Assembly (NCBI RefSeq): GCF_963668385.1
Contig: NZ_OY764327.1
Coordinates: 2,914,001 to 2,978,000 of the forward strand
Source of the DNA: an uncultured Carboxylicivirga sp.
GTDB lineage: Bacteria; Bacteroidota; Bacteroidia; Bacteroidales; Marinilabiliaceae
Reading direction: 5' to 3'
DNA length: 64,000 nucleotides
Shown one piece after another: positions 32,907 through 54,962 of the stretch. The first letter of the stretch is position 1. The number at the start of each line of letters is the position of its first letter. Below the pieces are notes generated by a model. The model saw only the letters and a program-made list of their open reading frames with translations. It had not been told where the DNA came from and searched no databases. Both the position numbers and the translations under genes were made by a program.

Positions 32907-32908
32907 AC

Positions 32909-34819: not shown

Positions 34820-34831
34820 AGAATAATCCAA

Positions 34832-34857: not shown

Positions 34858-34959
34858 TACCCCTTTGCCAAATAATAACCAACGCAACCCAATTCTGCAA
34901 AAAAGTAACCAAACACACCCAATACCCCACCTAAAGCCTATTATATGTTTGTTTCCATT
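34858..34959 (+). other. Island boundary with an iteron-like motif
   Basis: Contains AATAACC, AACGCAACCC and AAGTAACC (34903-34910), the last identical to the inverted iteron copies at 16121 and 16130. Same repeat on both sides of the AT-rich block; may mark where the island was inserted. Confidence 0.35.
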
Positions 34960-37320
34960 ATGGAAGCAAGCACAAAGAAAATATTAGGCACAGTAGCCGC
35001 TGTCGCAGCCGTTGGCGGCGGTTTTTACCTCATTAAGAAAGGCAAAAAGCTATTGGCTGGGGCAAAGATGAACTTCGCCCTGCTGGGTTTCCGCATCCAC
35101 AAGATGAACATGCAGGAAGTTCAGTTTGCCGTTAAGCTCCGCTGTTACAACCCATCAAAAGCACCCATCACCCTTGCCATAAATCAGGTAGTTGCCAATT
35201 ACAAAGATTCGGCAGTTGCTTATTCCACACCCGACATTAAGGGGCTTACCATTCCGGCTGGCGGTTCAAAAGAACCTGAAATAAAGTTTGATGTCCCGTA
35301 CCTGAACCTTCTGGGCAAAGGCTTGAACCTTTCGGCACTTTCCGATACTGCACAGCTGAAAAAGGACATGACTTTCACGCTTACCATTACGGTCAATGGT
35401 GAAACTCTCACAATTACGCAATCATTAACAGATGAAGATATGAACGGACTAGCACTGGGCGGATTAGGCATTGTCTCTGGCCCTAGAGATACCCAAAACG
35501 GAAAGAAGTTCAACCACCTTATCAGACGGGCTGACGGAAATGAAGTGTCTGTCAAAAACGGCAATGTCATTGAAACAGTTGAGAACTGCATTGATATTAT
35601 CGCTTCACACTACAGGGAAGTCGAAGGGCTTGCCAAGATGTTGCAGGGCGGTTCTTTGAAAGAAACATGCCGCAATATCTTCAATTTCTCATACACATAT
35701 CTGCAATACCAGAAAGACAGGGACGGAACTGAACAGCTCCGCACACCGGCACGGTCATGGCTTGACGGGCAGATCAAATACAAACAGAATGGAAACTCAG
35801 ATGCAGGGATTGACTGTGATGATTATAGCATTTTCGTAGGGTCGATTCTGAAATGCCTCGGCATTCCCTTCAAGCTCCGCATTACCAAATATGACGGCAG
35901 AAAGAATTTTCAGCATATCTATGTGTTTGTCCCTGCTGTCGGTGACAGTGAGGACGAGATCATAATTGACCCTGTGCTTTCAAAATTCGATTATCAGAAA
36001 CCGTACTCGTTTGAAAAGTCAGATTTTGACATGTCTCCGCTGCAGGTGGCAGCAGGCATACGTGGGATTAACGGCTTAACTGGTGAAACAAGCCTCGGTC
36101 TGCCGATTTCGATACTTTCCGGAATTGATTTAGCTGGCGGAGTTCAGGCTCAGGCAGGCCATGAAGAACTTATCGCAATCGTTTCGGGCGTTGATTTTGA
36201 CGATGCGGTAAACGGTCTGGGCGACTCCGAAGATGCCACATTGAAATATCTGATCCGCACCCGTGATTTCCTGCTGAAAAATAAGGACAACAAGGACAAG
36301 ATGGCTCATGTCCAGAACCCCGAACAATTTATCTCGATGCTGGACCAGGCAATCAAGTTCTGGAATACGCCCCAGCGCAACAGTGTATTGGACAAGCTTG
36401 CTGATATTGAAGAGAAACTGGCAGAAAACGGGCTGATAAAATATGATTCGGTTGCCATTGAAGGTCTGGCAGAATTGGATGAGCTGGACGAAATGGACGG
36501 CTTGGGAAGAAGAAAGCGAAAGAAAGGACGGTTCTTCAAAGCAGTTAAAAAGGTCGGCAAAAAAGTCGGCAGTGCTGCAAAGAAGGTAGTGAAAGCAATT
36601 GTACGGTTCAACCCTCTGTCCATTGCAATCAGGGGCGGGCTGCTTGCTGCACTCCGTTTGAATATGTTCAAAATTTCTAAAAAGCTGCAGTATGCCTATC
36701 TGCCCGATAATCTTGCCAGCAAATATAATCTTGATCCAGCCCAGCATGCAAAGCTCAAAAAGGTGCACGGCAAGGTCAAAAAGCTATTTAAGGGTCTTCA
36801 GGGCAAAGAAGAAAACCTGCGAAAGGCGATTCTGAAAGGGGCTAAACAGAACAGCTCTGATTTTTCACTTAAAGGCATTGAAGGGATTATAGGGGAACTG
36901 GGTGAACCTGCCACTGCTGCCTCAGTGACGGCAGCAAGCGGTGTCCTAGCGACTATCGGTGCATGGCTGAAACCGATAAAGAACATTTTTTCATCAGCAT
37001 CAAGCATCAAAAGTTCGGCGAGCAGTATGCTTCCTAAGAAAAGCTCAGGTTCATCTTCATCAGCAAGTTCAGGCTCTGCATTTCCTTCTGCAATGCAAAG
37101 AAGTGATACAGGCAAGAACCAGAATTCTGGCGGTCTGCCAAATAAAAAGAAACTGGGCAAAGGTGCAAAAATCGGCATCGGCATCGGGGTCGCTGCCCTG
37201 ATCGGCACGGGGGCTTATCTTCTGTTCCGGAAGAAAGATGACAAGCCCAAGGGCAAATCAGGAACCTCAAAAGACACTGCTCCCGGAAAGAAAGAACTTG
37301 GAAGCATTTCGCTTCAATAA
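34960..37320 (+). CDS. Large membrane protein with LEA14-like and transglutaminase-like domains
   Basis: About 786 residues from the ATG at 34960 (a start at 34945 is possible). Order: N-terminal membrane segment (ILGTVAAVAAVGGGFYLI), LEA14/LEA_2-like beta domain (to about 155), transglutaminase-like domain with C/H/D triad (DCDDY at about 286, QHIYVF at about 319, IIDPVL at about 336), a basic amphipathic stretch (GRRKRKKGRFFKAVKKVGKK), and a C-terminal membrane segment (KIGIGIGVAALIGTGAYLLF). Probable virion membrane or processing protein; first gene of the structural block. Repeated GLG/GELG-type linkers separate the domains. Confidence 0.7.
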   Translation: MEASTKKILGTVAAVAAVGGGFYLIKKGKKLLAGAKMNFALLGFRIHKMNMQEVQFAVKLRCYNPSKAPITLAINQVVANYKDSAVAYSTPDIKGLTIPAGGSKEPEIKFDVPYLNLLGKGLNLSALSDTAQLKKDMTFTLTITVNGETLTITQSLTDEDMNGLALGGLGIVSGPRDTQNGKKFNHLIRRADGNEVSVKNGNVIETVENCIDIIASHYREVEGLAKMLQGGSLKETCRNIFNFSYTYLQYQKDRDGTEQLRTPARSWLDGQIKYKQNGNSDAGIDCDDYSIFVGSILKCLGIPFKLRITKYDGRKNFQHIYVFVPAVGDSEDEIIIDPVLSKFDYQKPYSFEKSDFDMSPLQVAAGIRGINGLTGETSLGLPISILSGIDLAGGVQAQAGHEELIAIVSGVDFDDAVNGLGDSEDATLKYLIRTRDFLLKNKDNKDKMAHVQNPEQFISMLDQAIKFWNTPQRNSVLDKLADIEEKLAENGLIKYDSVAIEGLAELDELDEMDGLGRRKRKKGRFFKAVKKVGKKVGSAAKKVVKAIVRFNPLSIAIRGGLLAALRLNMFKISKKLQYAYLPDNLASKYNLDPAQHAKLKKVHGKVKKLFKGLQGKEENLRKAILKGAKQNSSDFSLKGIEGIIGELGEPATAASVTAASGVLATIGAWLKPIKNIFSSASSIKSSASSMLPKKSSGSSSSASSGSAFPSAMQRSDTGKNQNSGGLPNKKKLGKGAKIGIGIGVAALIGTGAYLLFRKKDDKPKGKSGTSKDTAPGKKELGSISLQ

Positions 37321-37342
37321 TCAATAATTAAAATTTAAAAAC

Positions 37343-38002
37343 ATGGCAGTTAGAAAGAATTCGTCAAGTACCCCACGGAGAAGCTCCGCAGGTACAAAGG
37401 TTGACTTTATGAAAGCTACCAGCAACATTGGCAAGCCCGTTGCTGCCGTAGCAGGGTTTGCAGTTGGTAAGTATGCACTCAAAAAACTACAGAAGAGCGA
37501 AACGGTCAGCGGTCTGCTAGGCTCTGAAATGTCGGGGTATCTGGTTCCTGCAGCCGTCACTATGGGCGGACTTATCGGCACTCAGCTGACCAAAAACCAA
37601 TTTGTGCAGCTGGGATTGGTCGGTGCAGCCGGAGCAGGTGTTGAAGCCATTGTCAAGAAGGCTACAGGCAAAACTATTCTTCAGGGCTTGGAGGGCATCA
37701 TCGGTGATGATGATTACACCGATTTTGAAGAAGTGGGTGCATTGCGTGCCCTCAATCCGGTAACCCAGGCTCTTCCGGCGGCTGATATTGACATCGAGCG
37801 TGAAATTCAGGCTTCCGTATCAGGTGCAGCCGGAGACTACAGCATGAGCGATGAACCCATTGGCAGTACAGCAAGCGATTATGCAATGAGCGATGAGCCT
37901 GTCGGCAGTTCAGGGTATGACGATGAAGTCGGCTCAATTAAACAGATCGACCCGGACAGCATGGACTACGATATTTTCTCGGGAGATATGATGGAATCCT
38001 GA
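37343..38002 (+). CDS. Glycine-rich membrane protein, probable virion component
   Basis: 219 residues. Two weakly hydrophobic, glycine/alanine-rich segments (NIGKPVAAVAGFAVGKYAL, about 25-45; LVPAAVTMGGLIGTQL and VQLGLVGAAGAGVEAIV, about 65-110) and an acidic C-terminus with repeats (YSMSDEPIGS, YAMSDEPVGS). Contains LEGIIGDDD, a motif shared with the preceding protein. Twenty-two bp after it. No family recognised; role in the virion is inferred from context. Confidence 0.6.
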   Translation: MAVRKNSSSTPRRSSAGTKVDFMKATSNIGKPVAAVAGFAVGKYALKKLQKSETVSGLLGSEMSGYLVPAAVTMGGLIGTQLTKNQFVQLGLVGAAGAGVEAIVKKATGKTILQGLEGIIGDDDYTDFEEVGALRALNPVTQALPAADIDIEREIQASVSGAAGDYSMSDEPIGSTASDYAMSDEPVGSSGYDDEVGSIKQIDPDSMDYDIFSGDMMES

Positions 38003-38065
38003 TTTTCAGTAAGCAACAGTATATCTATTTAATAATAAGGCTATTGAGCCTAAAAACAAATTATC

Positions 38066-38911
38066 ATGGCAGAAATAAATGAGCAGAAAGATTTGTACCC
38101 TTCGATGGACGACATAGAGGGTTTGGAAGAAGCGATCCTTGACAAAGAGGAAGATTCATTAGAAAAAGAAGAAGACCAGGACGATGCCGTTGAAGGTATC
38201 GGAGAGCTTGGGCGGAGCAGACGCAGAGGAAGACGCAGGAATCGCCGAAACCTGAGAAAAAGCAATAGAAAACGTGCAGTCCGCAGGTCTTTCAATGCAG
38301 GTGCTAAAAGTACCGCTGTAAAAACAGGGCTTACAAAAGACCTTACCTCTAAAGGGCAGTTTGAACTCCGCAGGCAGCAGCTGCCTCCTGAGATTCAGAA
38401 AGCACTGAAAGATGCACGTATGCAGACCGTTGACACGGCAATCTATACCATAAAATCGGTCAAGGACAAGTCGGACATCGACCTGATGGAAGCATCGGAT
38501 GACAAGAAATCAGGGATAACCAACCTGAACCGTGCCCAGCTGGATTCGGGCAAGTATTTCCTGCTCACCGATGTGGTTCTTGAATATGCCCACGGAGCTG
38601 CGGCAGATGATACCGATCCTGCAGATTTCTCATTCGGTCAGTTTGCACTGCCTCCGCAAATCCTGAACGGTACGTTCGAAATGACGTTAGGCACAAAGGT
38701 CATTATCCCGGAAATCTCATGTGCGGTATTTGACGATTCGGACACAACCAAACGGAAGTTCCTCTACAAGCTGGCAAACCCGAAATGGCTGAAGCCTTCG
38801 ATGGACATAACACCGAAGCTGAATATGCCGAAAGCGATCAACAACAGCGACAAGGTATTCAACCCTGCTGTAAAGATCACGCTCTTGGGAACTATCACCG
38901 AAAAAGCATAG
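38066..38911 (+). CDS. Candidate major capsid protein
   Basis: 281 residues. Acidic N-terminal tail (5-45), then a very arginine-rich patch (GRSRRRGRRRNRRNLRKSNR, about 50-69), then a beta-rich domain (about 110-281) with strands such as YFLLTDVVLEYAHG, TFEMTLGTKVIIPEI and AVKITLLGTITEKA, consistent with a jelly-roll shell protein. The arginine patch could bind genomic DNA or be removed on maturation. It is followed by a strong terminator, as for an abundantly made protein. Capsid role is inference; no sequence family recognised. Confidence 0.5.
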   Translation: MAEINEQKDLYPSMDDIEGLEEAILDKEEDSLEKEEDQDDAVEGIGELGRSRRRGRRRNRRNLRKSNRKRAVRRSFNAGAKSTAVKTGLTKDLTSKGQFELRRQQLPPEIQKALKDARMQTVDTAIYTIKSVKDKSDIDLMEASDDKKSGITNLNRAQLDSGKYFLLTDVVLEYAHGAAADDTDPADFSFGQFALPPQILNGTFEMTLGTKVIIPEISCAVFDDSDTTKRKFLYKLANPKWLKPSMDITPKLNMPKAINNSDKVFNPAVKITLLGTITEKA

Positions 38912-38934
38912 GTATCTGTAACGTCATAATCGTT

Positions 38935-38972
38935 CGGGGGGCGGCTAGCGGTATGTGAACCGTCCCCTTTTT
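38935..38972 (+). terminator. Strong terminator after the capsid candidate
   Basis: GGGGGCGG (38937-38944) pairs with CCGTCCCC (38960-38967), followed by TTTTT. Partial termination here would give excess transcript of the upstream gene. Confidence 0.7.
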
Positions 38973-38986
38973 CAATTCTGGAAAGC

Positions 38987-39373
38987 ATGGAAAAACAAGA
39001 AAACATAAAGAAGCTGCAGGTGGTGAAGTTCGAGGTCAAGAAAGGCCAGACCTTCGAGTTCAACGGCAATACAAAAACCGAACACGACCGCATCAAGGGG
39101 ATATTTCTCCGGCTGTCAAATCCGCAGGCACTGCCGGGGGCAACACTGAGAGTCTGGGTTGATGATACCGAGATAATCCCCGATGATACGGAAGTGGCTC
39201 TGCTCCATCACAACGATGATATGAGCATTAAGGATGTTGCTTTCCCGATGGATGAAAAAGCCAAGAACAGCCCTGTACGGATCATCTACAAGGATGACAG
39301 CGAGAACCTTGCAGTCAGCGACAGCTACAACGTGAGAGTGTATTTATTGGCAGAGGTTGAAAAGAAGAAATAG
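38987..39373 (+). CDS. Small beta-rich protein, probable virion component
   Basis: 128 residues. Alternating polar and hydrophobic stretches (KGQTFEFNGNTKTEHDRIKG, ATLRVWVDDTEIIP, SYNVRVYLLAEV) predict a compact beta sandwich. The likely start is the ATG at 38987, preceded by the terminator. Could be a second jelly-roll shell or penton protein. No homologue recognised. Confidence 0.55.
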   Translation: MEKQENIKKLQVVKFEVKKGQTFEFNGNTKTEHDRIKGIFLRLSNPQALPGATLRVWVDDTEIIPDDTEVALLHHNDDMSIKDVAFPMDEKAKNSPVRIIYKDDSENLAVSDSYNVRVYLLAEVEKKK

Positions 39374-39391
39374 CACCAATATCTCCTGAAA

Positions 39392-40180
39392 ATGAAAAGA
39401 TATTTTGTAATAACGAAGCATTCGGCAGACAACAGCCATTTTAATGAACAGGACTTGCTGCCTGCATCCTGCAAGCTGATAACGGGAATTGCGGTAAATG
39501 TTACGGTTAAGCAGGAATCTGAGCTTGATGATGATTCGCAGGATCTGATTTTCCCTCAGAACCTGATTTCCGACTTATTGCTGAGTGAAGGGATAACCAG
39601 CCTGTTTTACTCTTATCTGCGGACCAGGGCAACAATGGCTGAGAGCAAGGATTTCTTTGAATCGGACATACTGCCTGAGATTGTAACTATACTGAGCCAG
39701 AACCTCAAGTACACCTGTCTTTCAGAAGCTGAACAGGCATCGCTGAATGGCAGCATTGCGGAACTGTTCAATACCCAGTTTGCGGATTATCTCTACAACG
39801 AATCTGATATTTATGAGAAAGGAAAGTCCCTTTCAAATCTTGAATTCGCAGACCTGATAGCACAAAGGACAATGATGTTTGCATACCTGCATAAATCAGA
39901 TGTTTTCATCCGCCCTTTAAAGGTGTATAAGCGTCCGGAGCCCTACGAATGCGGAAACATCAGCTTATTGGTAAACGGCAACAGCTTTCTGCTCAGGGAT
40001 TATATGGTAACAGCAAACCGCAAGGTTCGCAACATGAGCAAGGAGATCATCCCGTTCCATGAACCGCTGGAAGTGAACAGCAATCTCCATGCGGTTTTCA
40101 AGAGCAATAAAAACAGCGGGGACAATACACTGACCATCAGAATCTATATTGAATATGAACACGAGCGAGTTACTGCATAG
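39392..40180 (+). CDS. Beta-rich structural protein candidate
   Basis: 262 residues. Helical middle (about 55-160) and a beta-rich C-terminal domain (GNISLLVNGNSFLLRDY, EIIPFHEPLEVNSNLHAVFK, TLTIRIYIEYEHERVT), similar in feel to the ends of the two preceding proteins. Overlaps the next gene by 26 bp, implying translational coupling. Capsid or vertex protein by context only. Confidence 0.5.
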   Translation: MKRYFVITKHSADNSHFNEQDLLPASCKLITGIAVNVTVKQESELDDDSQDLIFPQNLISDLLLSEGITSLFYSYLRTRATMAESKDFFESDILPEIVTILSQNLKYTCLSEAEQASLNGSIAELFNTQFADYLYNESDIYEKGKSLSNLEFADLIAQRTMMFAYLHKSDVFIRPLKVYKRPEPYECGNISLLVNGNSFLLRDYMVTANRKVRNMSKEIIPFHEPLEVNSNLHAVFKSNKNSGDNTLTIRIYIEYEHERVTA

Positions 40181-40517
40181 CATAGCGAAAGACCGTGTTG
40201 CTGGAATGCGGACTATCGACAGCTACCAGCTGAAGCCTGTGGTTGTAAATATTACAGGTGCAGATGTTTCGCTGGACCTGAAGAACGATATGTGGATTCT
40301 CAACACTAAAGGAATCCCTGCAAGCATTGAGGAACTGGAAATGGTAAGCAGCGACAACATATTTACAGCAACACCAGAAGAATACGATTTTATGGATGAA
40401 TACCGCTATCAGGTGTTCACAGACTATATCGACATCAAAACCCAGTCGGCAGATTTTAAGCCGTACAGGCTGGAATTTGTAAAGATCATTCCCCACAGGC
40501 TGCCAAGCAGCAGTTAA
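40155..40517 (+). CDS. Hypothetical protein, structural block
   Basis: 120 residues from the ATG at 40155, which overlaps the end of the previous gene. Predicted beta strands (YQLKPVVVNITGADVSLDL, FTDYIDIKTQSADFKPYRL). No family recognised; position suggests a minor virion or assembly protein. Confidence 0.5.
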   Translation: MNTSELLHSIAKDRVAGMRTIDSYQLKPVVVNITGADVSLDLKNDMWILNTKGIPASIEELEMVSSDNIFTATPEEYDFMDEYRYQVFTDYIDIKTQSADFKPYRLEFVKIIPHRLPSSS

Positions 40518-40616
40518 GTAAAGGGAAATAGCAGAAAGAAAAGCACCAAAGACTAAAAAAACGCAGTTGTCAAAACAGAGATTCAAGCCTAGCACCAAAT
40601 CAAAAACAATAATGTG

Positions 40617-41729
40617 ATGTTGGATTACAGAGAACAGGTACAGAGCATATACGAATTTATCAAGCGTTCCGAAGACGAACAGAAATATCCGTATGCTTAC
40701 GAGATACACCTTGTATCAGGGGTCGATGAGACTGCCCTGACATCAAGGACTGCCGGAACTGAAAAGTTTAACCGTGATATTGAAAGTGCCATTGAAAAGG
40801 CAAAGCAGGCACACGGAATTTTAAGGGTTGATGTTTTCGGCGGCAAAAGCCCGAATGCCAGAAGCCTGAACAGCTACACAATTAATGTGAGCAAGCTTCT
40901 GAATCCGCCCAAAGAGCCAATGGAGAGAGCCGAGATACAGACAATTATCCAGGAGGAAATGAAACAGCACCAGATACAGAACAGCACAAACGGATTAGGG
41001 GAACTCGATACGCTTGTGGGATTATTTTCAGGCGAGAACGAGCAGGCAAAATCAAAACTTGAAGGTCTGTTCGGGGTGTTCAATGCCCTTTCCGGCAACA
41101 ATAAAGAAGTTGAGCGGATAAGCTACCAGAAACAGCTTGACGATTTCAAATTCGAGACACGGTACGGTACGCTTGAAGAGAAGTACGAACGCCTGCGCAA
41201 TGAAAATGCAGAACTCCGTGCCGAAAAAGACCGCTATTACAGTGAAAACAGGGAACTGAAAAGTGACAAGGCTGAACTGGAAAACCGCCTTGCAGGGTAT
41301 GCACCAAATGAATTGATGAAGCGTGTCGCAGTCGGTGTCATTTCAGGCATCGGGGGGCGTTTGCTGAGCAACAGCCCGAAGACGGCAGAACTGCTTGGGC
41401 TTTCTCCCGATGAGCTGAAAGGTGCATTGGGGATTGTGGATGATGAACCGCAGGATACAGCCCTTATTCCGCAGACAAATGTGGAAATTACTGAAATGGG
41501 GACACCTCAGTCTCCGGAGGATAAACAGAAGGCTGCAATAATCAAAAACCTTTCGGAAGCCCTTTCAACATGGGAACTGCAGGATGTAGCCAAAATTGCC
41601 AATATCGTAGGTCTGTGCCTTGACAAGGCAGAACTCATTAATAAAACGCTGATGTTCCTGAATCAGTCCATTCAAGGTGTAGTGGAAGCCGAAAGTAACA
41701 ACCTTGAAATTGAAGATTTAGAGGATTAA
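40617..41729 (+). CDS. Coiled-coil protein, structural block
   Basis: 370 residues. An N-terminal domain (1-100), then a linker NGLGELDTLVGLFSGEN, a long coiled coil (about 165-225: EEKYERLRNENAELRAEKDR), a glycine-containing hydrophobic helix (VAVGVISGIGGRLL), and a C-terminal helical domain. A scaffold, assembly factor or internal protein is plausible. Start taken at the ATG at 40617 rather than the GTG before it. Confidence 0.55.
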   Translation: MLDYREQVQSIYEFIKRSEDEQKYPYAYEIHLVSGVDETALTSRTAGTEKFNRDIESAIEKAKQAHGILRVDVFGGKSPNARSLNSYTINVSKLLNPPKEPMERAEIQTIIQEEMKQHQIQNSTNGLGELDTLVGLFSGENEQAKSKLEGLFGVFNALSGNNKEVERISYQKQLDDFKFETRYGTLEEKYERLRNENAELRAEKDRYYSENRELKSDKAELENRLAGYAPNELMKRVAVGVISGIGGRLLSNSPKTAELLGLSPDELKGALGIVDDEPQDTALIPQTNVEITEMGTPQSPEDKQKAAIIKNLSEALSTWELQDVAKIANIVGLCLDKAELINKTLMFLNQSIQGVVEAESNNLEIEDLED

Positions 41730-41786
41730 TCAATACAAATTAACAGCAGTCTTGGTTCTTGAATCTTGGCTCTAAAATCTATTATC

Positions 41787-41963
41787 ATGAAAAAATTCAA
41801 AGTAGGGATTACCATCGAAGCAGATACCGCAGACACCGTTCAGCAGGTAGGAAACCTTTTGCAGAATGCGGTGAACAAGGTTGAACAGCAGGATATGATC
41901 AAGCTGCTGACCAAGGTGGTCAAGAACCCCAAAATTGTAAAAACAGCATTGAGATACATCTAA
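41787..41963 (+). CDS. Small helical protein, 58 residues
   Basis: MKKFKVGITIEADTADTVQQ start; helical with a basic C-terminus. Short gene inside the structural operon; no family recognised. Confidence 0.5.
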   Translation: MKKFKVGITIEADTADTVQQVGNLLQNAVNKVEQQDMIKLLTKVVKNPKIVKTALRYI

Positions 41964-41987
41964 CCCTTCTATCCAAAAACTGATACC

Positions 41988-42464
41988 GTGCAACAGCTAC
42001 CGCCAGTAAATAAAGCCTCCTTGATAATTAATGGAATCAAATACGGTCTTCCCGTTCTGGGCGTAGGCATTGGTGTATATGCTATCAAGAAGCTGCTTTT
42101 CAAAAGGAATCCTGACGGCACTTCCTCAAAAGAAGCACCGTCAATGAAAGATACTGTCATTGACAGGCAGAACCTTACAATCAGCGTGTCTGATGCGGCT
42201 CTGTATGCCAATACGCTGTACGGTGCGATGCTTGATTTTGGAACAGATGAGAAGACCATATTCAGCATCATTGATAAAATCCAGTCCAAAGACGATATGC
42301 TCCTGGTGATAAAAGCATTCGGCATGAAGCAGTACCTATGGGGGACGAGAGCCTCATTCTTAGGGCAGGACTACAACCTTATCGGATGGTTCAGGGCTGA
42401 ATTAGGCGATGATGATATCAATAAAATCAAACCCAAGTTTGACAGCTGGGGAATCCCTTTATAA
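41988..42464 (+). CDS. Single-pass membrane protein, structural block
   Basis: 158 residues from a GTG start (no ATG in reach). N-terminal membrane segment (YGLPVLGVGIGVYAIKKLLF, about 16-35). The soluble C-terminal domain (about 60-158) contains AALYANTLYGAMLDFGTDE and FSIIDKIQSKDDMLLVIKAF, reminiscent of annexin-like or peptidoglycan-binding helices. One of at least four small membrane-anchored proteins here, as in viruses with an internal membrane. Confidence 0.55.
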   Translation: MQQLPPVNKASLIINGIKYGLPVLGVGIGVYAIKKLLFKRNPDGTSSKEAPSMKDTVIDRQNLTISVSDAALYANTLYGAMLDFGTDEKTIFSIIDKIQSKDDMLLVIKAFGMKQYLWGTRASFLGQDYNLIGWFRAELGDDDINKIKPKFDSWGIPL

Positions 42465-42479
42465 ATAGACACCGCAGGC

Positions 42480-43076
42480 ATGGACAAGAAAAAGAAAATA
42501 CTATTTGTTTCGGGAGGGGTGCTTACCGCAGGCTTATTGGCAGGCTCATTTTTTCTGATACGCAGAAGGAACAGAAAGAAAGGAGGTTCAAATTATCTGA
42601 CCACCAACAGCAATGAGCTTCCGTCCAATTTTCAAAACTGGAACGGGGGGAATACTTACCTGACCGATGCTCCGAGGGGAATCCGGAACAACAATCCGGG
42701 AAACCTGATCTATACCAGCATCAAGTGGAACGGCAAGCTGCCAAAGGAACAGAATAAGGACAGGCGTTTTGAAATGTTTATTTCCCCTGTTTACGGTGTC
42801 CGTGCCATGATTAAAGACCTGAAAAATGATATTGAGAAAGGCAAAAGCACCGTACCGCAGCTGATTGAGGAATATGCCCCACGGTTTGAGAATAATACGG
42901 ACAGCTATATCAGTACGGTATGTGCCGACCTGAAAGTCAGCAGGACGGCAAAGCTCCTGCCTACAAAGAATACGCTCCGCCTGCTGGTTTTCTCCATTTC
43001 CAAGGTTGAGAACGGTGCTAATTATATCAGCAATGAACTGTTTGAACAGGCATATTCAATGGCTTACCCTCAATGA
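42480..43076 (+). CDS. Membrane-anchored muramidase-like virion protein
   Basis: 198 residues. N-terminal membrane segment (KILFVSGGVLTAGLLAGSFFLI), basic patch, then a lysozyme-like domain beginning PRGIRNNNPGNLIYTSIKWNG, with FEMFISPVYGVRAMIKDL and YISTVCADL. The RGIRNNNPGN motif marks a family of virion-associated murein hydrolases (structural protein P5-like). It would open the cell wall locally during entry. Distinct from the free endolysin at 54018. Confidence 0.75.
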   Translation: MDKKKKILFVSGGVLTAGLLAGSFFLIRRRNRKKGGSNYLTTNSNELPSNFQNWNGGNTYLTDAPRGIRNNNPGNLIYTSIKWNGKLPKEQNKDRRFEMFISPVYGVRAMIKDLKNDIEKGKSTVPQLIEEYAPRFENNTDSYISTVCADLKVSRTAKLLPTKNTLRLLVFSISKVENGANYISNELFEQAYSMAYPQ

Positions 43077-43118
43077 GGGCGATAATAAAAAACACAACGA
43101 ACTAAAAATATTTTTGCA

Positions 43119-45365: not shown

Positions 45366-45370
45366 AGAGT

Positions 45371-45871
45371 ATGAAAATAATCGTAACAGTATCACTATTA
45401 GTCGGGTTTATTGCTCTGTGCCTGTACCTTCAAGTAATTGTCTCTGAATTTGGAATCCGCAAGTCGATTTCAGACAGCAATTATTTCCTGAAAAAGCCAT
45501 TCAAGCTGATGTTTGAGCTGGTTATGTGGATTTGCGGTCTTTCAATAATTACCACAGGGATATTTCTAAAGGATACTCCGCAATGGTGGATAATCGGCGG
45601 AGGAATCGGCATCTTCGGTGTCGGTATATTTTCAGATTTCAAGCGGAATCTCTTTTTAAGAATCTCGCATTACACCTCTGCAATTAGCGGATTTGCAATG
45701 CTTGGATTAAGCTTCTGGCTCAACCTGAACAGTTTCCGATACTCTGCAATTATTGCGGTGTCTGCACTGCTTGCTGGCCTGCTTGGCAGAAAGCGTATCT
45801 GGTGCCTTGAGCTTACCATGTCAATCGAAGTATTTATTGGGCTGTTCTATTTTGCCCTGACATTGCAATAG
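45371..45871 (+). CDS. Multi-pass membrane protein
   Basis: 166 residues with five or so hydrophobic segments covering most of its length and little soluble sequence. Starts 5 bp after the fibre gene. No family recognised; could be a virion membrane or host-interaction protein. Confidence 0.6.
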   Translation: MKIIVTVSLLVGFIALCLYLQVIVSEFGIRKSISDSNYFLKKPFKLMFELVMWICGLSIITTGIFLKDTPQWWIIGGGIGIFGVGIFSDFKRNLFLRISHYTSAISGFAMLGLSFWLNLNSFRYSAIIAVSALLAGLLGRKRIWCLELTMSIEVFIGLFYFALTLQ

Positions 45872-45881
45872 CAACCGAGGC

Positions 45882-46973: not shown

Positions 46974-47695
46974 GGGTTCTCAACTTATATAGCGGTCTTG
47001 GCGGAAACAGGAAATTATGGAAAGGTGCAGATGTAACGGCAGTAGAATTGAATCGGTATGCAGCCTCGATTTACAGACAGATGTATTCCCGTGATAAAAT
47101 TATTGTCGGAGATGCCCATGAATATCTGCTTAGGAACCATGAACGGTTCGACTTTGTATGGAGCAGCCCTCCCTGCCAGAGCCACAGCAAGATGGTAAAG
47201 GCGACACGGCACGATATCCGCAAATTTCCCGACATGAAGCTGTACGAGGAAATTATCTGGCTCCAGCATTTTTTCAAAGGTAAATGGGTGGTCGAGAATG
47301 TGAAACCATACTATAAACCGCTGGTTGAACCTACTGCTGTACTAGGCAGGCACTGTTTCTGGTCGAATTTCAGTATCGGCAATTATGAGCCGCCGGCAAT
47401 GGGCAATTTCATTCAGGCCCACGAAGATGATATTAAGAAATGGCTCGGGCTAGAGTTTTCGGCAGAACGGAAACGTGCAGAAGGCTTCCGCCTTGACCAG
47501 GCAATACGGAACTGTGTCCACCCTGAGCTGGGAAGGCATGTTTACAGTGAGATGAAAAAAGCAGTATCGTTTGGAGGCATGAATGGCACTTCTGCAAAAG
47601 ATAGAACTGCTATGAAAGCGAAAGCAATACGGTTAAAACAGAAACAGCATGAAACTGGCACGGCCAGAGCGAATTATCAGAACTCTAATTTCTAG
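46970..47695 (+). CDS. C5-cytosine-type DNA methyltransferase
   Basis: 241 residues from the ATG that overlaps the previous stop. NLYSGLGGNRKLW is the SAM-binding motif. SSPPCQSHS at about 65-73 holds the catalytic cysteine. VVENVKPYY gives the ENV motif. Shorter than typical C5 methylases, with a small target-recognition region, as usual for phage versions. Pairs with the preceding adenine methylase, so this virus may carry two kinds of modification. Confidence 0.82.
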   Translation: MRVLNLYSGLGGNRKLWKGADVTAVELNRYAASIYRQMYSRDKIIVGDAHEYLLRNHERFDFVWSSPPCQSHSKMVKATRHDIRKFPDMKLYEEIIWLQHFFKGKWVVENVKPYYKPLVEPTAVLGRHCFWSNFSIGNYEPPAMGNFIQAHEDDIKKWLGLEFSAERKRAEGFRLDQAIRNCVHPELGRHVYSEMKKAVSFGGMNGTSAKDRTAMKAKAIRLKQKQHETGTARANYQNSNF

Positions 47696-47719
47696 GTATT
47701 GGAGCAAAAACGATTTCTC

Positions 47720-50700
47720 ATGAAACAGACAATAAAATTTAGCAAGAACAGCATTTCAATACAATTTCCTTCTCAGCCTCCAAAGCATAAATCGGCAAGG
47801 CTGATTGAGCTGGGATTCAAGACAGCAGACAGTAAAAGCTTTGTCCGTACTCAAAAGCTGGCTCAGAACGAACATGAATACCTGCAAGGGATGTTCGGAC
47901 ATAAAGGTCTGGGCATGGCATATATTCCTGCTGCCGAAAAAGGTTTTATCCTGGATACGACCGTGCCTGAATCAATGGGGCATGAAATGCACATCGCTAT
48001 CCGGAAAGTTAAGAAAAGTATCGGGATGCCACTGTTTGACTATGTTGCGGAGAAACTCGATTACAGCAATGATGAGCTTGTAAAATCGCTTTCATGCGAA
48101 CAGATTGATGCTGTATCTCTGGCAATTTACAATATCGAGAAGCGTCGGCAGGGAATCATTGTCGGCGACCAGACGGGTATCGGCAAAGGACGAACCGCAG
48201 CCGCACTGATACGCTACGGGGTGAAAAGCGGATTGCAGCCGGTGTTCTTGTCAGAGAAACCGAACCTGTTTACCGACCTCTACCGTGATTTGTCAGATAT
48301 TGGAAGCTCCGCACTGGTTCCGTTTATCGTAAATTCCAAGGAAAGCAAGACAAACATAAAGGACAAGAACGGAGAGATAGTTTATACAGCCCCTGAAAAA
48401 CCGACACAGGAACGGATTATCAAAAGCAGGGAAATACCCAGCAGTTACAATTTCGTCTGTGCCACCTATTCGCAGTTCAACCAGCCGAAGAAGCCTGCAA
48501 AGCAGGTGTTCTTGAGTTCTGCATCCAATGGCAATATCATAATCATGGACGAAGCCCATAACGCTTCGGGAAGCTCAAACACTGGCGAGTTCATGCAGGG
48601 AGTCCTGCGCCAGACAAAGGGCGTATGCTTTCTTTCGGCAACTTTTGCAAAACGCCCTGACAATATGCCGATTTACGCTCAGAAAACATCAATGAGCGAT
48701 GCCAATATGAGCAAGGAGGATTTGGTTGAAGCAATTACGAAAGGCGGTGTTGCATTGCAGGAAGTTTTGGCGGCACAGCTGGTGTCTGAGGGGCAGATGA
48801 TACGGCGTGAGCGTTCATTTGAAGGTGTCGAAGTAAACTATATCGAGCTGAAAGAAAAAGCAAAAGAGCAGGCTGATATTGCCGATAAGATAACCGCCAT
48901 AATCCGTGACATTATCGGATTTCAGGAGAAGCACATTAACAAACAGGTTGAACAGCTGGACAAGATTGCGGCTGGGGAAAGCAAGGAGGTTGAAACCCGA
49001 AAAGGAACAGAGAAAGCAGGGGTTGACAATATCCCTTACTTTTCCAAGGTCTTCAATGTCATAAACCAACTGCTGTTCAGCCTGAATGCTTCTGATGTTG
49101 CCGACCATGCGATAAACAGGCTGAAAGAGGGAAAGAAACCGATTATCGCCTTTGCCTCTACAATGGGGAGCTTTTTAGAGGGAATGGCAAAACCCGATGA
49201 TGTGATAAACGGTGATTTCTCAACGGTATTGGAAAAGGGGCTTGATTCAGTCCTCCGCTATACGGAAAAGGATATTGACGGGGAATCGCAGGGCAAGCAG
49301 TTTAATATTGCTGATCTGTCAGAGGAAGCCCAGCTCGCATACCGTGATATTCTGCGAAGAATAGAACAGGCTTCCACAGGCATTACAATCAGCCCGCTTG
49401 ATCTGATAATTCAGAAGATAAAGGATGCTGGCTACTCTTGCGGCGAAGTTACGGGGAGAAAGCTCTGTGTTCAGTATAAGTCAACCAGCTCCAAGAATAC
49501 CGCGGCACTGGTGATGAGCCGTAAAAAGGAAAATACTGCTGACCTGTTCCGCCAGTTCAATGACAACGAAATTGACTGTCTGCTGATTAACCAGAGCGGT
49601 TCAACAGGTGCATCGGCACATGCGGTTGTCACTGATAAGGTGCCAGCTGAAAAGGTAAAGCAGAGAGTGATGGTTATACTGCAGCCTGAACTTAACATCA
49701 ACACCGAAATTCAGAAGCGTGGGCGTATCAATAGGACTGGCCAGATAATGAAACCGATTTACGACTACATTATCTCATCCATCCCTGCACAGAAGCGGTT
49801 TATGATGATGCTCAAAAAGAAGCTGAAATCACTGGATGCAAATACCACTTCCAACCAGAAGAACAGCAAGAGCCAGCTTGAATCGGATGACTTCCTGAAT
49901 AAGTACGGAGACAAGGTTGTCCGCCAGTATATGCTTGAAAATCCTGAGCTGAACAAATTACTGGACAACCCTCTCAAATTTGAAGGGAAAGACAGTGATG
50001 AAACAGCATCGGAAGGCGATGCTTCAAAAGTGACAGGACGGGTTGCTGTGCTTTCGGTCAAGGAACAGGAAAAGTTCTATTCTGAAGTTATTGAGCGGTA
50101 CAATGACTATGTGGAATACCTGAAGCAGGCAGATGAGTACGATCTTGAAGTCGAGATTCTGGATTTGAAAGCAGAATCGCTTGATAAGCGTGTCGTGATT
50201 GCTGGCAAAGGAGGGCGTTCGGTGTTCGGCAACGATACCTATTTGGAAAAATGCGAATGCAACGTACTCAAAAAACCGTATGGCAAAAGCGAATTATTAA
50301 AACTCGTAGAAAAATCCCTTGATAAAAAACAGCCTGAATCCATTTCTGAAGAAATTATCTCAGCTCACGAAAAGTATGTGCAGGACAAGCTTTCAGCCGA
50401 TTTAAAAACATTGGAGGTGAAATATAAGGAGCTTCTGGACGGAATCACCGATGAAAAGGGCTATCAGAAAATACCTGTTTACGACAAGGCTGGGCAGAAA
50501 GACTATGTTGCTGAACGCACAGAAGAAATTCAGGAAGCAAAAACAGCGGATATTGCAAAGACCAGGACGCAGAGCGAAAACAGGAAAAACTATCTGAACG
50601 GTTTCTTCAAATTCTTCAAGATCGGTCACGGATATTTCTATCCTGCACTGAGCTTTGAAACTGACAGTTCCAGCAATTCATACTGCATCTTCTTGGGATT

Positions 50701-51637
50701 CGACATAAACCCGAAACGGAGAAACCCTTATGCGCCATCGGCTGTGAAGCTCCGCTTTGCAATAGCTGACAGCAGAAAATACATTGTCCTTCCAGCTTCG
50801 GGAGATACGGCAAAGGAAATTGAACGCATTCAGGCACGGAGCTTTCAGCTTACAGCATCACAGAAAGAGAGCCTGATTGACCGCTGGGATGAAGCGATAA
50901 AGGATTTCACTCTTGACAGGCAGGTTCGCTATATAGTTACAGGGAATATCTTGCAGGGATCGGCTGATTTCCCCGGTAAGCTGGTGAGCTTCACAACCAA
51001 GGGCAAAGGAGTCAAGAAAGGTATCTTGATGAGCGAGGCATGGTCGCCTGATAGCAGTGGCAATAAGGCTGATAATTATGTCGTTGCCCCGATTGCAAAA
51101 CTGCAAAAACATATTATGAGCCTGCGTTCTGGTTCCTCCATTGCCACAGAAAACGGAATCAGCATCGGCCGCCATTTTGATGATACGTTCCGTGTCATCA
51201 TGCCAAAGAAGAAACAGCATATCCCCATATATACCGATAAGGACGTGATTTCCCTCTGCATGAACAGCCGTGACGGGTTTGAAATGGTTTCGGGCAACAT
51301 GAGGGCTTCTGTTGCTGAAACGAAAATGCCGAAGGTCATCCAGCTGCTTGGCGACCGATTCAGCCTGTCGGTGAAAATTCCTCGGAACTATTTCAATGAA
51401 TATGTTGAGAAAGGGACGGACAGAAGTTCATCTGCCGACAGCCTTACTCAGGAAGCTATGAAAATGTTTGAGGCTGATAAACGTGATTTTCCGAAACGTC
51501 TGGCACAGCAGAAGCAGTCCGTTCCCAAAGGCAAAGCGGTAAATCTTGACAAGGCAAAGCATCTGAAACTTGTGAAGCTCCGTGCAAAGGCAATCCTCAT
51601 TAAGCAGAAACAGCTCAAAGCAGTAGCAGGGTTGTAA
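47720..51637 (+). CDS. Strawberry-notch-type SF2 helicase
   Basis: 1305 residues; the ATG at 47720 is preferred to the TTG at 47699. Walker A is in GDQTGIGKGRTAAALI (about 150), DEAH box in IIMDEAHNASGSS (about 276), SAT motif in CFLSATFAK, and motif VI in IQKRGRINRTGQ (about 675). The GIGKGR and NRTGQ signatures mark the strawberry-notch family, in phages almost always next to methylases as here. Role likely in chromatin-like access, replication or methylation. The C-terminal 500 residues are unassigned. Confidence 0.88.
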   Translation: MKQTIKFSKNSISIQFPSQPPKHKSARLIELGFKTADSKSFVRTQKLAQNEHEYLQGMFGHKGLGMAYIPAAEKGFILDTTVPESMGHEMHIAIRKVKKSIGMPLFDYVAEKLDYSNDELVKSLSCEQIDAVSLAIYNIEKRRQGIIVGDQTGIGKGRTAAALIRYGVKSGLQPVFLSEKPNLFTDLYRDLSDIGSSALVPFIVNSKESKTNIKDKNGEIVYTAPEKPTQERIIKSREIPSSYNFVCATYSQFNQPKKPAKQVFLSSASNGNIIIMDEAHNASGSSNTGEFMQGVLRQTKGVCFLSATFAKRPDNMPIYAQKTSMSDANMSKEDLVEAITKGGVALQEVLAAQLVSEGQMIRRERSFEGVEVNYIELKEKAKEQADIADKITAIIRDIIGFQEKHINKQVEQLDKIAAGESKEVETRKGTEKAGVDNIPYFSKVFNVINQLLFSLNASDVADHAINRLKEGKKPIIAFASTMGSFLEGMAKPDDVINGDFSTVLEKGLDSVLRYTEKDIDGESQGKQFNIADLSEEAQLAYRDILRRIEQASTGITISPLDLIIQKIKDAGYSCGEVTGRKLCVQYKSTSSKNTAALVMSRKKENTADLFRQFNDNEIDCLLINQSGSTGASAHAVVTDKVPAEKVKQRVMVILQPELNINTEIQKRGRINRTGQIMKPIYDYIISSIPAQKRFMMMLKKKLKSLDANTTSNQKNSKSQLESDDFLNKYGDKVVRQYMLENPELNKLLDNPLKFEGKDSDETASEGDASKVTGRVAVLSVKEQEKFYSEVIERYNDYVEYLKQADEYDLEVEILDLKAESLDKRVVIAGKGGRSVFGNDTYLEKCECNVLKKPYGKSELLKLVEKSLDKKQPESISEEIISAHEKYVQDKLSADLKTLEVKYKELLDGITDEKGYQKIPVYDKAGQKDYVAERTEEIQEAKTADIAKTRTQSENRKNYLNGFFKFFKIGHGYFYPALSFETDSSSNSYCIFLGFDINPKRRNPYAPSAVKLRFAIADSRKYIVLPASGDTAKEIERIQARSFQLTASQKESLIDRWDEAIKDFTLDRQVRYIVTGNILQGSADFPGKLVSFTTKGKGVKKGILMSEAWSPDSSGNKADNYVVAPIAKLQKHIMSLRSGSSIATENGISIGRHFDDTFRVIMPKKKQHIPIYTDKDVISLCMNSRDGFEMVSGNMRASVAETKMPKVIQLLGDRFSLSVKIPRNYFNEYVEKGTDRSSSADSLTQEAMKMFEADKRDFPKRLAQQKQSVPKGKAVNLDKAKHLKLVKLRAKAILIKQKQLKAVAGL

Positions 51638-51664
51638 TTCCAACTGATAACTATAAAATACAAT

Positions 51665-52591
51665 ATGATGAAACTGACAGTAAAAAACTACAGGGAGGCA
51701 ACGAAGGATATTGATTTCAAGGAACTGCCCGATGCAGCGCAGGAAGCTCACAAGGAATTTGATTCATTTGCCGATTTCTATAACGAAGACAAGGATATAA
51801 AGGAGATGCTTGATAACCATTTCAAGATTGTCGAGCCATATCTCAATTCAAAGCGTTTCCCCGAACTGCCGGACAGGCATCCGCTGAATATTCTGGATAA
51901 GGAATCGGGCCAGTACAAAGCTGCATTGAAAGAATACCGGGAGAGCAAAAAGCAGAAAGAAAAGCCCTCTGCCAAGTCAAAACAAGCTCCGAAAAAGAAG
52001 CCAGAACCAGCTAAAGCATCTGCTAAAACACCAGCAAAGAAAACGGCAAAACGAAAGCCCCATGAAGTTGACCTTATGCCGTTAGAAATTAAGATTATTA
52101 AACGCTATCTCAATTTTCATGGCAAGAAAGTTTCAGAGCGTCAAGTGTCGCTTCTGTATAAGGTTATCCAGAAAGCTGCAACGGAAAAGACCATCCGAAA
52201 AACGAGCAGATATGCAGGTGAAATCAAAACCATCAGCAATGACCTGATAAAAACCTACAGGGAAATGAATGGCACTTGCACATTTGAAGTGCCTGATTCG
52301 ACATTCAGCAAATTGAAAGAAATTGTTGACAGCTACGGGGTTACACCAGCTGTGGGATTGATTAAGCGTTTCATAAATCTGTACGGGAATATTACAAAAA
52401 CCAAAGCACAGAGGCTCTTGACAAGCATTACCAATTCCTTGAAAAACGGAAAGGTGGTAGCATCGGATAAGGAATATGAACAGGTCAAGAACGTTCAGAA
52501 ACATCTGAATGATTATCTGGAAAGCGATAAGCTGCTTGTTACCAATGTCCAGTTAAAGGGGCTGCAAGGCATTACAGGACTGGGAAAGTAA
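51665..52591 (+). CDS. Helical protein with internal repeat, co-encoded with the helicase
   Basis: 308 residues. N-terminal domain, lysine/proline/alanine-rich linker (about 95-130), then two related helical units: IKIIKRYLNFHGKKVSERQ and GLIKRFINLYGNITKTKAQ. Ends with LKGLQGITGLGK, close to the GLG-type motif of the structural proteins. Follows the helicase by 27 bp. Function unknown; DNA-binding partner is a guess from its basic linker. Confidence 0.6.
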   Translation: MMKLTVKNYREATKDIDFKELPDAAQEAHKEFDSFADFYNEDKDIKEMLDNHFKIVEPYLNSKRFPELPDRHPLNILDKESGQYKAALKEYRESKKQKEKPSAKSKQAPKKKPEPAKASAKTPAKKTAKRKPHEVDLMPLEIKIIKRYLNFHGKKVSERQVSLLYKVIQKAATEKTIRKTSRYAGEIKTISNDLIKTYREMNGTCTFEVPDSTFSKLKEIVDSYGVTPAVGLIKRFINLYGNITKTKAQRLLTSITNSLKNGKVVASDKEYEQVKNVQKHLNDYLESDKLLVTNVQLKGLQGITGLGK

Positions 52592-52629
52592 ATGCCGCTG
52601 CTCAAAAGCCCATTAGCAGTGGCTCTGAT

Positions 52630-53235
52630 ATGAGGGCTAGAAATTCAATAATGACAAAAACAGCAACGGTTGACCCGAACCAGGTTGTGTCTGCAAATGA
52701 ACTGGCGAAGATGAAATTTTCTACGCTTACTCTGCGTGGTAAATTCGCAAAGCTGCTCGGCAAACCATATATCCCTTTTTACCTGATGATCTACGGTCAG
52801 CGGTTTCACGGTAAGAGTTCTGTGGCAATGCTGCTTGCTGACCTTCTGGTAAAATGCGGTCTGAAAGTGCTGTATGTATCCAATGAAGAAGGTATAAAAG
52901 GTTCGCTTCAGGAAAAGCTATTGCGGTTGCAGATAAATAGCCCAATTGACTTTGTGGAAAACTATGACCCTGCACAGTTTAAGGGTTATAATGCAGTGTT
53001 TCTGGACAGCACGCAGACTGTTGGCATGAAACCAGAAGAGTTTAAAGTTCTCAAAAGACAGTTTCCCGACACATCTTTCATTCTCGTCTTCAAGGCAAAC
53101 CGTGACGGGACATCGAAAGGCGGAACGGACTGGGAACATGATGTCGATGCTATCATGCATATCGAGAACAGGTGTGCGACAATGGAAAAAAACCGCTTTC
53201 CGGGAGGAAGCTCAGAAACGGTTAAAATTTTCTAA
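52630..53235 (+). CDS. RecA/RadA-like P-loop ATPase
   Basis: 201 residues; the start may be the ATG at 52651. Walker A GQRFHGKSS (about 57), VLYVSNEEG after it, Walker B AVFLDSTQT, and KANRDGTSKGGTDWEHDVDA, which mirrors the RadA KExG/LEHxVD region. It lacks the zinc finger and Lon domains of RadA. In a virus without a terminase this compact motor is one of the few candidates for genome packaging, although recombination is the simpler prediction from its family. Confidence 0.7.
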   Translation: MRARNSIMTKTATVDPNQVVSANELAKMKFSTLTLRGKFAKLLGKPYIPFYLMIYGQRFHGKSSVAMLLADLLVKCGLKVLYVSNEEGIKGSLQEKLLRLQINSPIDFVENYDPAQFKGYNAVFLDSTQTVGMKPEEFKVLKRQFPDTSFILVFKANRDGTSKGGTDWEHDVDAIMHIENRCATMEKNRFPGGSSETVKIF

Positions 53236-53258
53236 CGGACTAAATGTATTAATTGAAC

Positions 53259-53597
53259 ATGGAAGAGACGATGTTAAAATTATTCTGGATCGCAGTAGGC
53301 TCAACCGGATCGCTGGCAGTTGGGATTCTGCTCGTTATCATCCGAAACGCTATTTCTAAAAATGCTACGAAGGAAACAGTTGATGCAAAAACCGACCTGC
53401 TTGAAAAGGACATTCAGCATCTGACTAAGGAGCTGGATTCATGTGAGAATAAATTCGCAGTTCTGCACAAACGGATTTCCGATTTACGGGACAGCTCCAA
53501 AGAGATATATGTGAGCAAGGAACTGTTCCACCAGACCATAAAACAGCTCAATGAAAAGCTTGATACGATATTGAAATTTGTAACAGGTAATGCCTGA
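53259..53597 (+). CDS. Membrane-anchored coiled-coil protein of the lysis region
   Basis: 112 residues. N-terminal membrane segment (LFWIAVGSTGSLAVGILLVI) then a coiled coil (DLLEKDIQHLTKELDSCENK). The layout resembles inner-membrane spanins and phage holin-associated proteins. Just upstream of the holin and endolysin genes. Confidence 0.6.
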   Translation: MEETMLKLFWIAVGSTGSLAVGILLVIIRNAISKNATKETVDAKTDLLEKDIQHLTKELDSCENKFAVLHKRISDLRDSSKEIYVSKELFHQTIKQLNEKLDTILKFVTGNA

Positions 53598-53614
53598 GAT
53601 AACGATAAAATACG

Positions 53615-54034
53615 ATGAGAATATTTAAGAAATTATTCAATGCAGGTTCAGCCGAAACTCTGAAAGAAGGGACAAAGCTCATTGATGAAATATTCACTAC
53701 ACAGGAAGAAAAGCTCCAGGGGAAAATGGAGCTTTTCAAAATGGCTGTTGCGGACAGAGGTTCTGCACGGGAAATGTATCAGCAGGACAGCTGGCTGCAA
53801 AAAACATTTGCCATGTTCTTTTTGGTTGCGTGGTGCGGATTGACATACATAATGCTGAACTATTTCATTTTCGAGAAGATTCAGCTTGAAGACTGGCAGA
53901 TTGCATTTGTGAGCAGTATCAATGGCGGCATATCCACCAAACTAAGCACAATCATAGACTTCCTTTTTGGCGGTGCAATTTCAGGGGTAAACAGTGTAAA
54001 TCTAAAACGAAAGAAAAATGCAAAAGACATTTGA
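53615..54034 (+). CDS. Holin-like protein
   Basis: 139 residues. Amphipathic N-terminus (residues 1-60), then two membrane segments (FAMFFLVAWCGLTYIMLNYF; SSINGGISTKLSTIIDFLF and on) and a basic tail (NLKRKKNAKD). Matches the form of the 3TM holins of gene-transfer and prophage type. Would make lesions that release the endolysin. Overlaps the endolysin gene by 17 bp. Confidence 0.65.
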   Translation: MRIFKKLFNAGSAETLKEGTKLIDEIFTTQEEKLQGKMELFKMAVADRGSAREMYQQDSWLQKTFAMFFLVAWCGLTYIMLNYFIFEKIQLEDWQIAFVSSINGGISTKLSTIIDFLFGGAISGVNSVNLKRKKNAKDI

Positions 54035-54584
54035 TGAATTATTTGAAGGAGTGATAAAGCATGAAGGTTTTTATGCCAATGTTGAAGGAGACAGGGGAGG
54101 CGAAATGTATATGGGTGTAGCCAGAAACCTGCATCCAACATGGAGAGGATGGAAAATTATAGATGCTTACAAAGCTGAACATGGCAAAATACGCCATAAC
54201 CAAAACTTGAACATTGTAGAATTATATGAGCTGGTCAAAGTCTTTTACAGACATACATTTTACCATACGAACCGCATAGAATCCATAAGCCACGGGGCGT
54301 TGCAGGAAATTATATTTGACTGGTGCGTAAACAGCGGTCGGTATGGAAGCAAACGAGTTCAAAGAGTGCTAAATCAATTCTATAGTGCAGGTTTAATAAC
54401 GGACGGTATTATTGGCTATAAAACCCTGTCTGCAATTAATTCATGTGAACCTGAAGAACTATTTGATGAGATTAAGAATGCAAGAATCCGCTATTACCAT
54501 CAAATTGCCAAGAAGGGGAAGAACTATTTGTTTTTGGAAGGGTGGCTGAAAAGGATTGGGGAGATAGTATTTGAAGATATGTAG
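54018..54584 (+). CDS. Endolysin, GH108 muramidase
   Basis: 188 residues. Glycoside hydrolase 108 signature: FEGVIKHEGFYANVEGDRGG with catalytic Glu16, then MGVARNLHPTWRGW and the FDWCVNSGRYGSKRVQRVLN region; the C-terminal half is the peptidoglycan-binding PG_binding_3-type helical domain. Cleaves the glycan strands at lysis. The gene order coiled-coil protein, holin, endolysin is a normal lysis cassette, so the element is built to release particles. Confidence 0.88.
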   Translation: MQKTFDELFEGVIKHEGFYANVEGDRGGEMYMGVARNLHPTWRGWKIIDAYKAEHGKIRHNQNLNIVELYELVKVFYRHTFYHTNRIESISHGALQEIIFDWCVNSGRYGSKRVQRVLNQFYSAGLITDGIIGYKTLSAINSCEPEELFDEIKNARIRYYHQIAKKGKNYLFLEGWLKRIGEIVFEDM

Positions 54585-54654
54585 TGTCGCTTGCATCGTA
54601 AGTAAACAGCCTTAATTTGTTATATTGCATATAAAATAACTCAAACAAATAAAC

Positions 54655-54927
54655 ATGAATAAATCAGAATTAGTAAGTGCAATTGCATCCGAAAGTGGAT
54701 TATCTAAAACAGATTCAGAAAAAGCATTGCAAGCAACAACAGAAGCTATTAAAAATGCTTTAGCGAAAGGTGAAAGTATTCAATTGATCGGATTCGGAAC
54801 TTTTTCTATAAGCGAACGTGCAGCTCGTACAGGTCGAAATCCTCAAACAGGAAAAGAGATTCAAATTGCAGCAAAGAAAGTTGCCAAATTTAAACCGGGC
54901 AAAGCTTTGGACGAAGCAATTAACTAA
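54655..54927 (+). CDS. HU-family DNA-binding protein
   Basis: 90 residues, the normal HU length: MNKSELVSAIASESGLSKTD, GFGTFSISERAARTGRNPQTGKEIQI and the C-terminal KFKPGKALDEAIN. Bends and compacts DNA; at the edge of an integrative element it may assist the integrase (HU/IHF role) or condense viral DNA. Followed by a terminator. Confidence 0.92.
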   Translation: MNKSELVSAIASESGLSKTDSEKALQATTEAIKNALAKGESIQLIGFGTFSISERAARTGRNPQTGKEIQIAAKKVAKFKPGKALDEAIN

Positions 54928-54939
54928 AAGAATATGGGA

Positions 54940-54962
54940 GGAGGTTTGTGCCTCCTTTTTTA
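54940..54962 (+). terminator. Terminator after the HU gene
   Basis: GGAGG (54940-54944) pairs with CCTCC (54951-54955), followed by a run of T. Confidence 0.65.

Follow-up and report, generated by a model that had tools for sequence, protein, structure and literature searches.

SSIP-1 is a salt-lake phage, still listed as an unclassified double-stranded DNA phage, whose particle is described as tailless and icosahedral, of ~100 nm and with an internal membrane (PMC6356626, PMC6260650, PMC4958249, PMC5332951); it is credited with two types of major capsid protein (PMC6356626), and its capsid fold is given as "single jelly roll?" in the table of a 2018 review (PMC6260650). Its genome "hardly shares any similarity" with GenBank sequences (PMC6356626), its product gp40 is named as a predicted packaging ATPase in a review of archaeal virus ATPases, in which the precise roles of such enzymes are left open (PMC4124505), and the open-licence papers that we consulted yielded no description of SSIP-1-type proviruses, which is no proof of their absence. 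Among other tailless viruses, SPV1 is placed at the base of a branch with two capsid proteins and is described as having no packaging ATPase, and a portoglobovirus-like ancestor has been proposed to precede the two-capsid-protein helvetiaviruses (PMC8812541). Here, we analyzed a window of 64,000 nucleotides (positions 2914001-2978000 of the single-contig 6.27 Mb genome of an uncultured Carboxylicivirga sp.) and found in it an element of ~46.6 kb that is very probably a dormant tailless virus related to SSIP-1, with a shell made mainly of a single jelly-roll protein.

Homology of the late block to SSIP-1

The element ends in a late block of tightly packed genes on one strand (34945-54584; GC 0.451, with both outer flanks at 0.35), whose products we name g1 to g20 (table). 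A tblastn search with g17 returned nine phage records, two of which are SSIP-1 (25% identity, E 6e-6). Profiles compared with single SSIP-1 proteins then paired g17 with gp40 (HMM 5e-21, hhalign P 98), g20 with gp31 (3e-19, P 99), g1 with gp34 (5e-12, P 97, rising to P 99.6 against the gp34 family) and the integrase of the element with that of SSIP-1 (2e-5); the DCD and QHIYV motifs of g1 align with DCD and DHVYV of gp34, and phrog_6891, the family matched by g17, covers gp40 over its whole length. Neither g2 nor g3 matched a single SSIP-1 protein by profile. Homologues of gp45 occur in 11 of 296 phylum genomes and form two families, and the loci that hold them served to build profiles of the gp44 and gp45/46 families, to which g2 (hhalign P 91, E 1e-6) and g3 (P 56, E 1e-4, 125 columns) respectively aligned. 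No column shuffle reached either score (0/60 and 0/100), and g3 stayed below P 2 against seven other SSIP-1-type families. In gp45-family loci such as L194, the capsid gene is immediately preceded by a gene that matches g2 as well as gp44, and g2-g3 repeat the order gp44-gp45. In SSIP-1, gp34, gp40, gp44, gp45 and gp46 are all annotated as structural proteins. The element and SSIP-1 share homologous virion genes that follow one another in the same order; six other structural-block families gave no match between the two. The view in the original prediction that the sequences match no described family is not supported, since they match SSIP-1, albeit mostly through profiles alone.

The two genomes are further alike in size (~44 kb for SSIP-1) and in possessing an integrase gene. 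Unlike SSIP-1, however, the element is integrated as a provirus and carries a defence island; its capsid gene has no twin, with g4 and g5 in place of gp47/48; it has a strawberry-notch helicase and separate small methylases where SSIP-1 has the 2319-residue gp43; and its antirepressor is of P22 type rather than Bro-N. The kind is already known through SSIP-1, and what seems new is an integrated, apparently temperate form that carries a defence island, is wide in Bacteroidota and has a jelly roll predicted to be closest to SPV1.

The structure prediction that the original prediction had called for on the product of 38066 (g3) gave a single jelly-roll capsid fold, with one barrel, closest to the single jelly-roll capsid protein of SPV1 (Portogloboviridae). 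This likeness is one of predicted fold: SPV1 is an archaeal virus, and membership in Portogloboviridae, taken as a shared SPV1 gene set and an archaeal host, is not supported for an element hosted by a bacterium. In helvetiaviruses (SH1, HHIV-2, HCIV-1, P23-77), two jelly-roll capsid types are established, whereas only g3 is predicted as such here, and packaging relies on an FtsK-type ATPase, whereas the element has a RecA-like one and no Pfam or PHROG match to an FtsK-type packaging ATPase among the products scanned. In sphaerolipoviruses, the genome is linear and measures 28-31 kbp. When the g3 gene of the window was compared with five other copies, pN was 0.07-0.12 and pS 0.64-0.81, with dN/dS of 0.03-0.06 in the three comparisons with finite dS, a pattern of selection on protein function.

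Extent, copies and cargo of the provirus

The original prediction had taken 34960..54927 as the whole prophage, but this makes up no more than the right half of an element running from ~8.47 to 55.1 kb. Its approximate ends are marked by the GTATGGCAA motif, which is paired (12 bp spacing) at 8473/8485 and 55068/55080 only and occurs singly elsewhere in the window, and the two imperfect repeats there are putative att sites. The linkage of left arm and late block is seen in other copies: a primase 81-84% identical to that of the window lies on one contig with the late block in copies 1 and 2 of the same genome, in G007 and G012, and in the IMG/VR records G491 and G492, while in two other members only a distant primase (26-29%) is found upstream. 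Four copies of the late block are present in the genome, three of them within ~190 kb and diverged from one another. In copy 1, the integrase, a homologue of the conserved gene at 10050 and the primase (2783278-2790301) precede the late block (2808005-2828824); in copy 2, the primase (2849103) precedes it (2869037-2889825) and an integrase lies behind (2892091). A temperate lifestyle is supported by the left arm, which encodes a tyrosine integrase and an antirepressor.

Between the arms of the window copy lies ~18 kb of low-GC cargo with restriction-modification and other defence matches. A J-domain gene stands directly before g1 in copies 1 and 2; in the window the two are ~4.7 kb apart (30351-34819), with a TmtA-like and a trypsin-like gene between them, as if cargo had been inserted at that point.

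Outside the provirus, long direct repeats of nearly identical sequence, exact over up to 72 bp, lie on either side, at 6500-7700 and 58189-59400, and look like a dispersed host repeat rather than att sites. At 2575-3410, short repeated peptides make up open frames on both strands, and the DNA there is therefore a tandem repeat.

Features of the provirus and of its copies (window positions, except for the last row, which gives genome positions)
Feature	Position	Strand	Basis or remark
Whole provirus	8473..55100	not assigned	~46.6 kb, approximate ends; paired GTATGGCAA motif; left arm-late block linkage in other copies
Left att-like imperfect repeat	8473..8506	+	putative att
Right att-like imperfect repeat	55068..55100	+	putative att
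Tyrosine integrase	8518..9798	+	Pfam Phage_integrase 8e-19; PHROG integrase 1e-35
Conserved gene of no assigned function	10050..11033	+	54% identical gene adjoins integrase in copy 1
P22-type antirepressor	12099..12674	+	Pfam P22_AR_N 1e-28
DnaG-type primase with further C-terminal region	12707..15820	+	Pfam; PHROG DNA primase 2e-106
Low-GC cargo island	16566..34819	+	GC 0.332; Pfam, PADLOC
Type I restriction-modification genes	16566, 18681, 20885	+	in cargo island
PADLOC matches	19971, 25616, 30351, 34037	+	PDC-S15, PDC-S18, TmtA-like, LmuA-like (weak), respectively
J-domain protein	29886-30149	+	in cargo island
g1, WHy/LEA-like and transglutaminase-like domains, two membrane-like segments	34945..37320	+	SSIP-1 gp34 homologue
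g2, glycine-rich protein	37343..38002	+	SSIP-1 gp44 homologue
g3, major capsid protein candidate	38066..38911	+	predicted single jelly roll, residues ~118-281
g4, second capsid protein candidate	38987..39373	+	downstream of g3 (counts in text)
g5, g4 paralogue with helical-looking insertion	39392..40180	+	hhalign P 98.6
g6, small conserved protein	40170..40517	+
g7, conserved coiled-coil protein	40614..41729	+
g9, conserved membrane-segment protein	41988..42464	+
g10, membrane-anchored virion muramidase	42480..43076	+	PHROG head/packaging 'endolysin' 3e-34
g11, repetitive fibre	43119..45365	+
g13 N6-type methylase, g14 C5 methylase, g15 strawberry-notch helicase	45882..51637	+	45882-46973, 46877-47695, 47699-51637
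g16 and g17, RecA-like ATPase	51665..53235	+	single fused protein in distant relatives; SSIP-1 gp40 homologue
Lysis cassette g18-g20	53253..54584	+
g19, holin-like	53615-54034	+	PHROG holin 1e-4
g20, GH108 endolysin with PG_binding_3	54018-54584	+	Pfam 3e-15 and 9e-15; SSIP-1 gp31 homologue
HU-type DNA-binding protein, low GC	54655..54927	+	PHROG 1e-36; not found in other own-genome copies
Late-block copies in the genome	2783278-2828824, 2849103-2889825, 2922473-2969100, 5250001-5270000		third is the window copy

Conservation in Bacteroidota and alternative explanations

With the own genome counted each time, 28 of 100 related genomes, from 13 of 61 genera, were found to have g1. A g3 profile matched 36 of 395 genomes of the class; in a phylum sample, a broader profile of the g3 core matched 10 of 395, two of these only at E ~2e-4 to 4e-4. 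A single-protein scan of named genomes gave 27 loci, in Carboxylicivirga, Plebeiobacterium, Saccharicrinis, Marinilabilia and Gaoshiqia among others; the cultured strain Carboxylicivirga sediminis JR1 has two g3 loci. A further comparison covered 54 g3 loci on large fetched stretches, some of which share a genome: g1 is found upstream of g3 in 53 of them, downstream of it are g4 in 51 and g9 in 47, and 40 have g2 as the immediate upstream neighbour. Because its genes recur together in related genomes, mostly at 60-90% identity, and because g3 is under selection, the late block is far from a chance assembly. A compact relative of <10 kb (L131:3700-13500), beside a chromosomal dehydratase gene, has g1, g3, g4, g7, g9 and a GH108 endolysin; the stretch read gave no match to a helicase or an ATPase.

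The gene content that the original prediction had read from the letters is confirmed, namely the lysis genes, virion-type muramidase (residues 57-181 of g10 are 43% identical to Vibrio phage 1.249.A), repetitive fibre, two methylases and helicase, to which the RecA-like ATPase is added. Where it had counted at least five membrane-segment proteins, glycine-rich ones included, hydropathy gives six (two segments in g1, four in g12, and g9, g10, g18 and g19), and g17, an ATPase of soluble type, also has a hydrophobic stretch; glycine makes up 10% of g1 and 12% of g2. It had also seen no terminase, portal, or HK97 capsid or protease. We scanned 30 products against PHROGs (all 21 late-block genes and nine left-arm or cargo products) and 20 of the 21 late-block genes against Pfam, at E up to 1 for the late block and 0.01 for the HU gene; several cargo genes were covered by Pfam or PADLOC only, and the product of 28587 and small unlisted open reading frames lay outside the scans. 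The terminase, portal and HK97-fold capsid that characterize Caudoviricetes, like the HK97 protease, found no match among these products, and such tail or head names as appeared in the late-block scans were weak coiled-coil matches or the muramidase domain. This method is not blind, since the same PHROG library, when applied to Bacteroides phage BS-TP4, recognized a portal (8e-109), a terminase (9e-11) and a major head protein (1e-7). A tailed phage with hallmark genes diverged beyond recognition might explain a muramidase common to many tailed phages, and the portal-bearing BS-TP4 does encode a related methylase-helicase protein; yet with 30 products scanned under a working control, and a jelly roll among the most conserved structural genes, this is extremely improbable. 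The PRD1-, PM2- or FLiP-like provirus that the original prediction had in mind is hardly less so: these viruses have double jelly rolls, with two jelly rolls in one capsid chain, and genomes of ~15, 10 and 9 kb (PMC6260650), whereas g3 is modelled as one barrel in an element of ~46.6 kb, and homology points to SSIP-1.

It is unlikely, though distinctly less far-fetched, that we are looking at a decayed or domesticated relative (a satellite, a gene-transfer agent or a chromosomal defence carrier) that makes no infectious virus. The window copy does carry ~18 kb of cargo, the compact L131 relative has g1-g9 and lysis genes with no helicase match in the stretch read, and copy 4 of the same genome (5.25-5.27 Mb), where g1-g11 are kept but the stretch read contained no methylase, helicase, ATPase or endolysin, looks decayed. 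On the other hand, every one of the 21 late genes in the window copy is open, g3 is under strong selection, the same gene set is present in copies 1 and 2 and in relatives, and integrase and lysis genes are in place. Of the original prediction, a temperate element without tailed-phage hallmarks is supported, with an integrase, an antirepressor, a predicted jelly roll, several small proteins with membrane-like segments and homologues in SSIP-1; we infer its membrane, its particles and its infectivity.

Proposed life cycle and significance

As a dormant SSIP-1-like virus, the element would be inserted and excised by its integrase at the two att-like sites, the antirepressor would open the lytic programme, and the primase would copy the DNA. 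The shell would consist mainly of g3, with g4 and its paralogue g5 as probable further capsid or vertex proteins, and an internal membrane inside it would hold the membrane-segment proteins g1, g9 and g10. DNA packaging would fall to the RecA-like ATPase g16/g17 as the strongest candidate, and the transglutaminase-like g1 would be a virion protein and possibly a maturation protease; in this regard, short GxG motifs (EGIGELG, GIIGELG, GLGELD) recur in g1, g2, g3, g7 and g16 (34945-41729, 51665-52591), near basic stretches in g1 and g3, and look like possible maturation cleavage sites. The fibre g11 would bind the host, the muramidase g10 would open the wall at entry, and g18-g20 would lyse the cell for release. 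Incoming DNA may be protected or acted on by the methylases and helicase. A near-identical basic C-terminal tail (K/RAKAI.IKQKQ-like) is common to g13, g14 and g15 and to no other product tested, and could be a targeting or packaging signal; the conflicts in which viruses and plasmids deploy multidomain "polyvalent" proteins (PMC5512222) may be the setting of these three. A lysogen, for its part, would gain the defence island.

More tentatively, it is possible that these elements form a large and so far unnamed lineage of tailless temperate phages that contain a membrane (~45 kb, single jelly-roll capsids) and reside in genomes throughout Bacteroidota, in marine Marinilabiliaceae as well as in other classes. 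This lineage would join SSIP-1 to the portoglobovirus-helvetiavirus branch through its capsid fold, closest to that of SPV1, with a RecA-type rather than FtsK-type packaging motor, a transglutaminase-like maturation protease and exchangeable defence islands between early and late arms. The frequencies of g1 among related genomes and of g3 in the class suggest that Bacteroidota commonly carry tailless temperate phages, which methods built on tailed-phage hallmarks may miss, and that SSIP-1 has many hidden relatives in these genomes. For SSIP-1, the window element and its relatives supply a family of related sequences, a confidently modelled capsid protein and bacterial hosts in which proviruses are already in place. 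The ancestor proposed in PMC8812541 also finds a test case in a bacterial group whose capsid fold is like that of SPV1, and a RecA-like ATPase in a bacterial relative would be relevant to that scheme.

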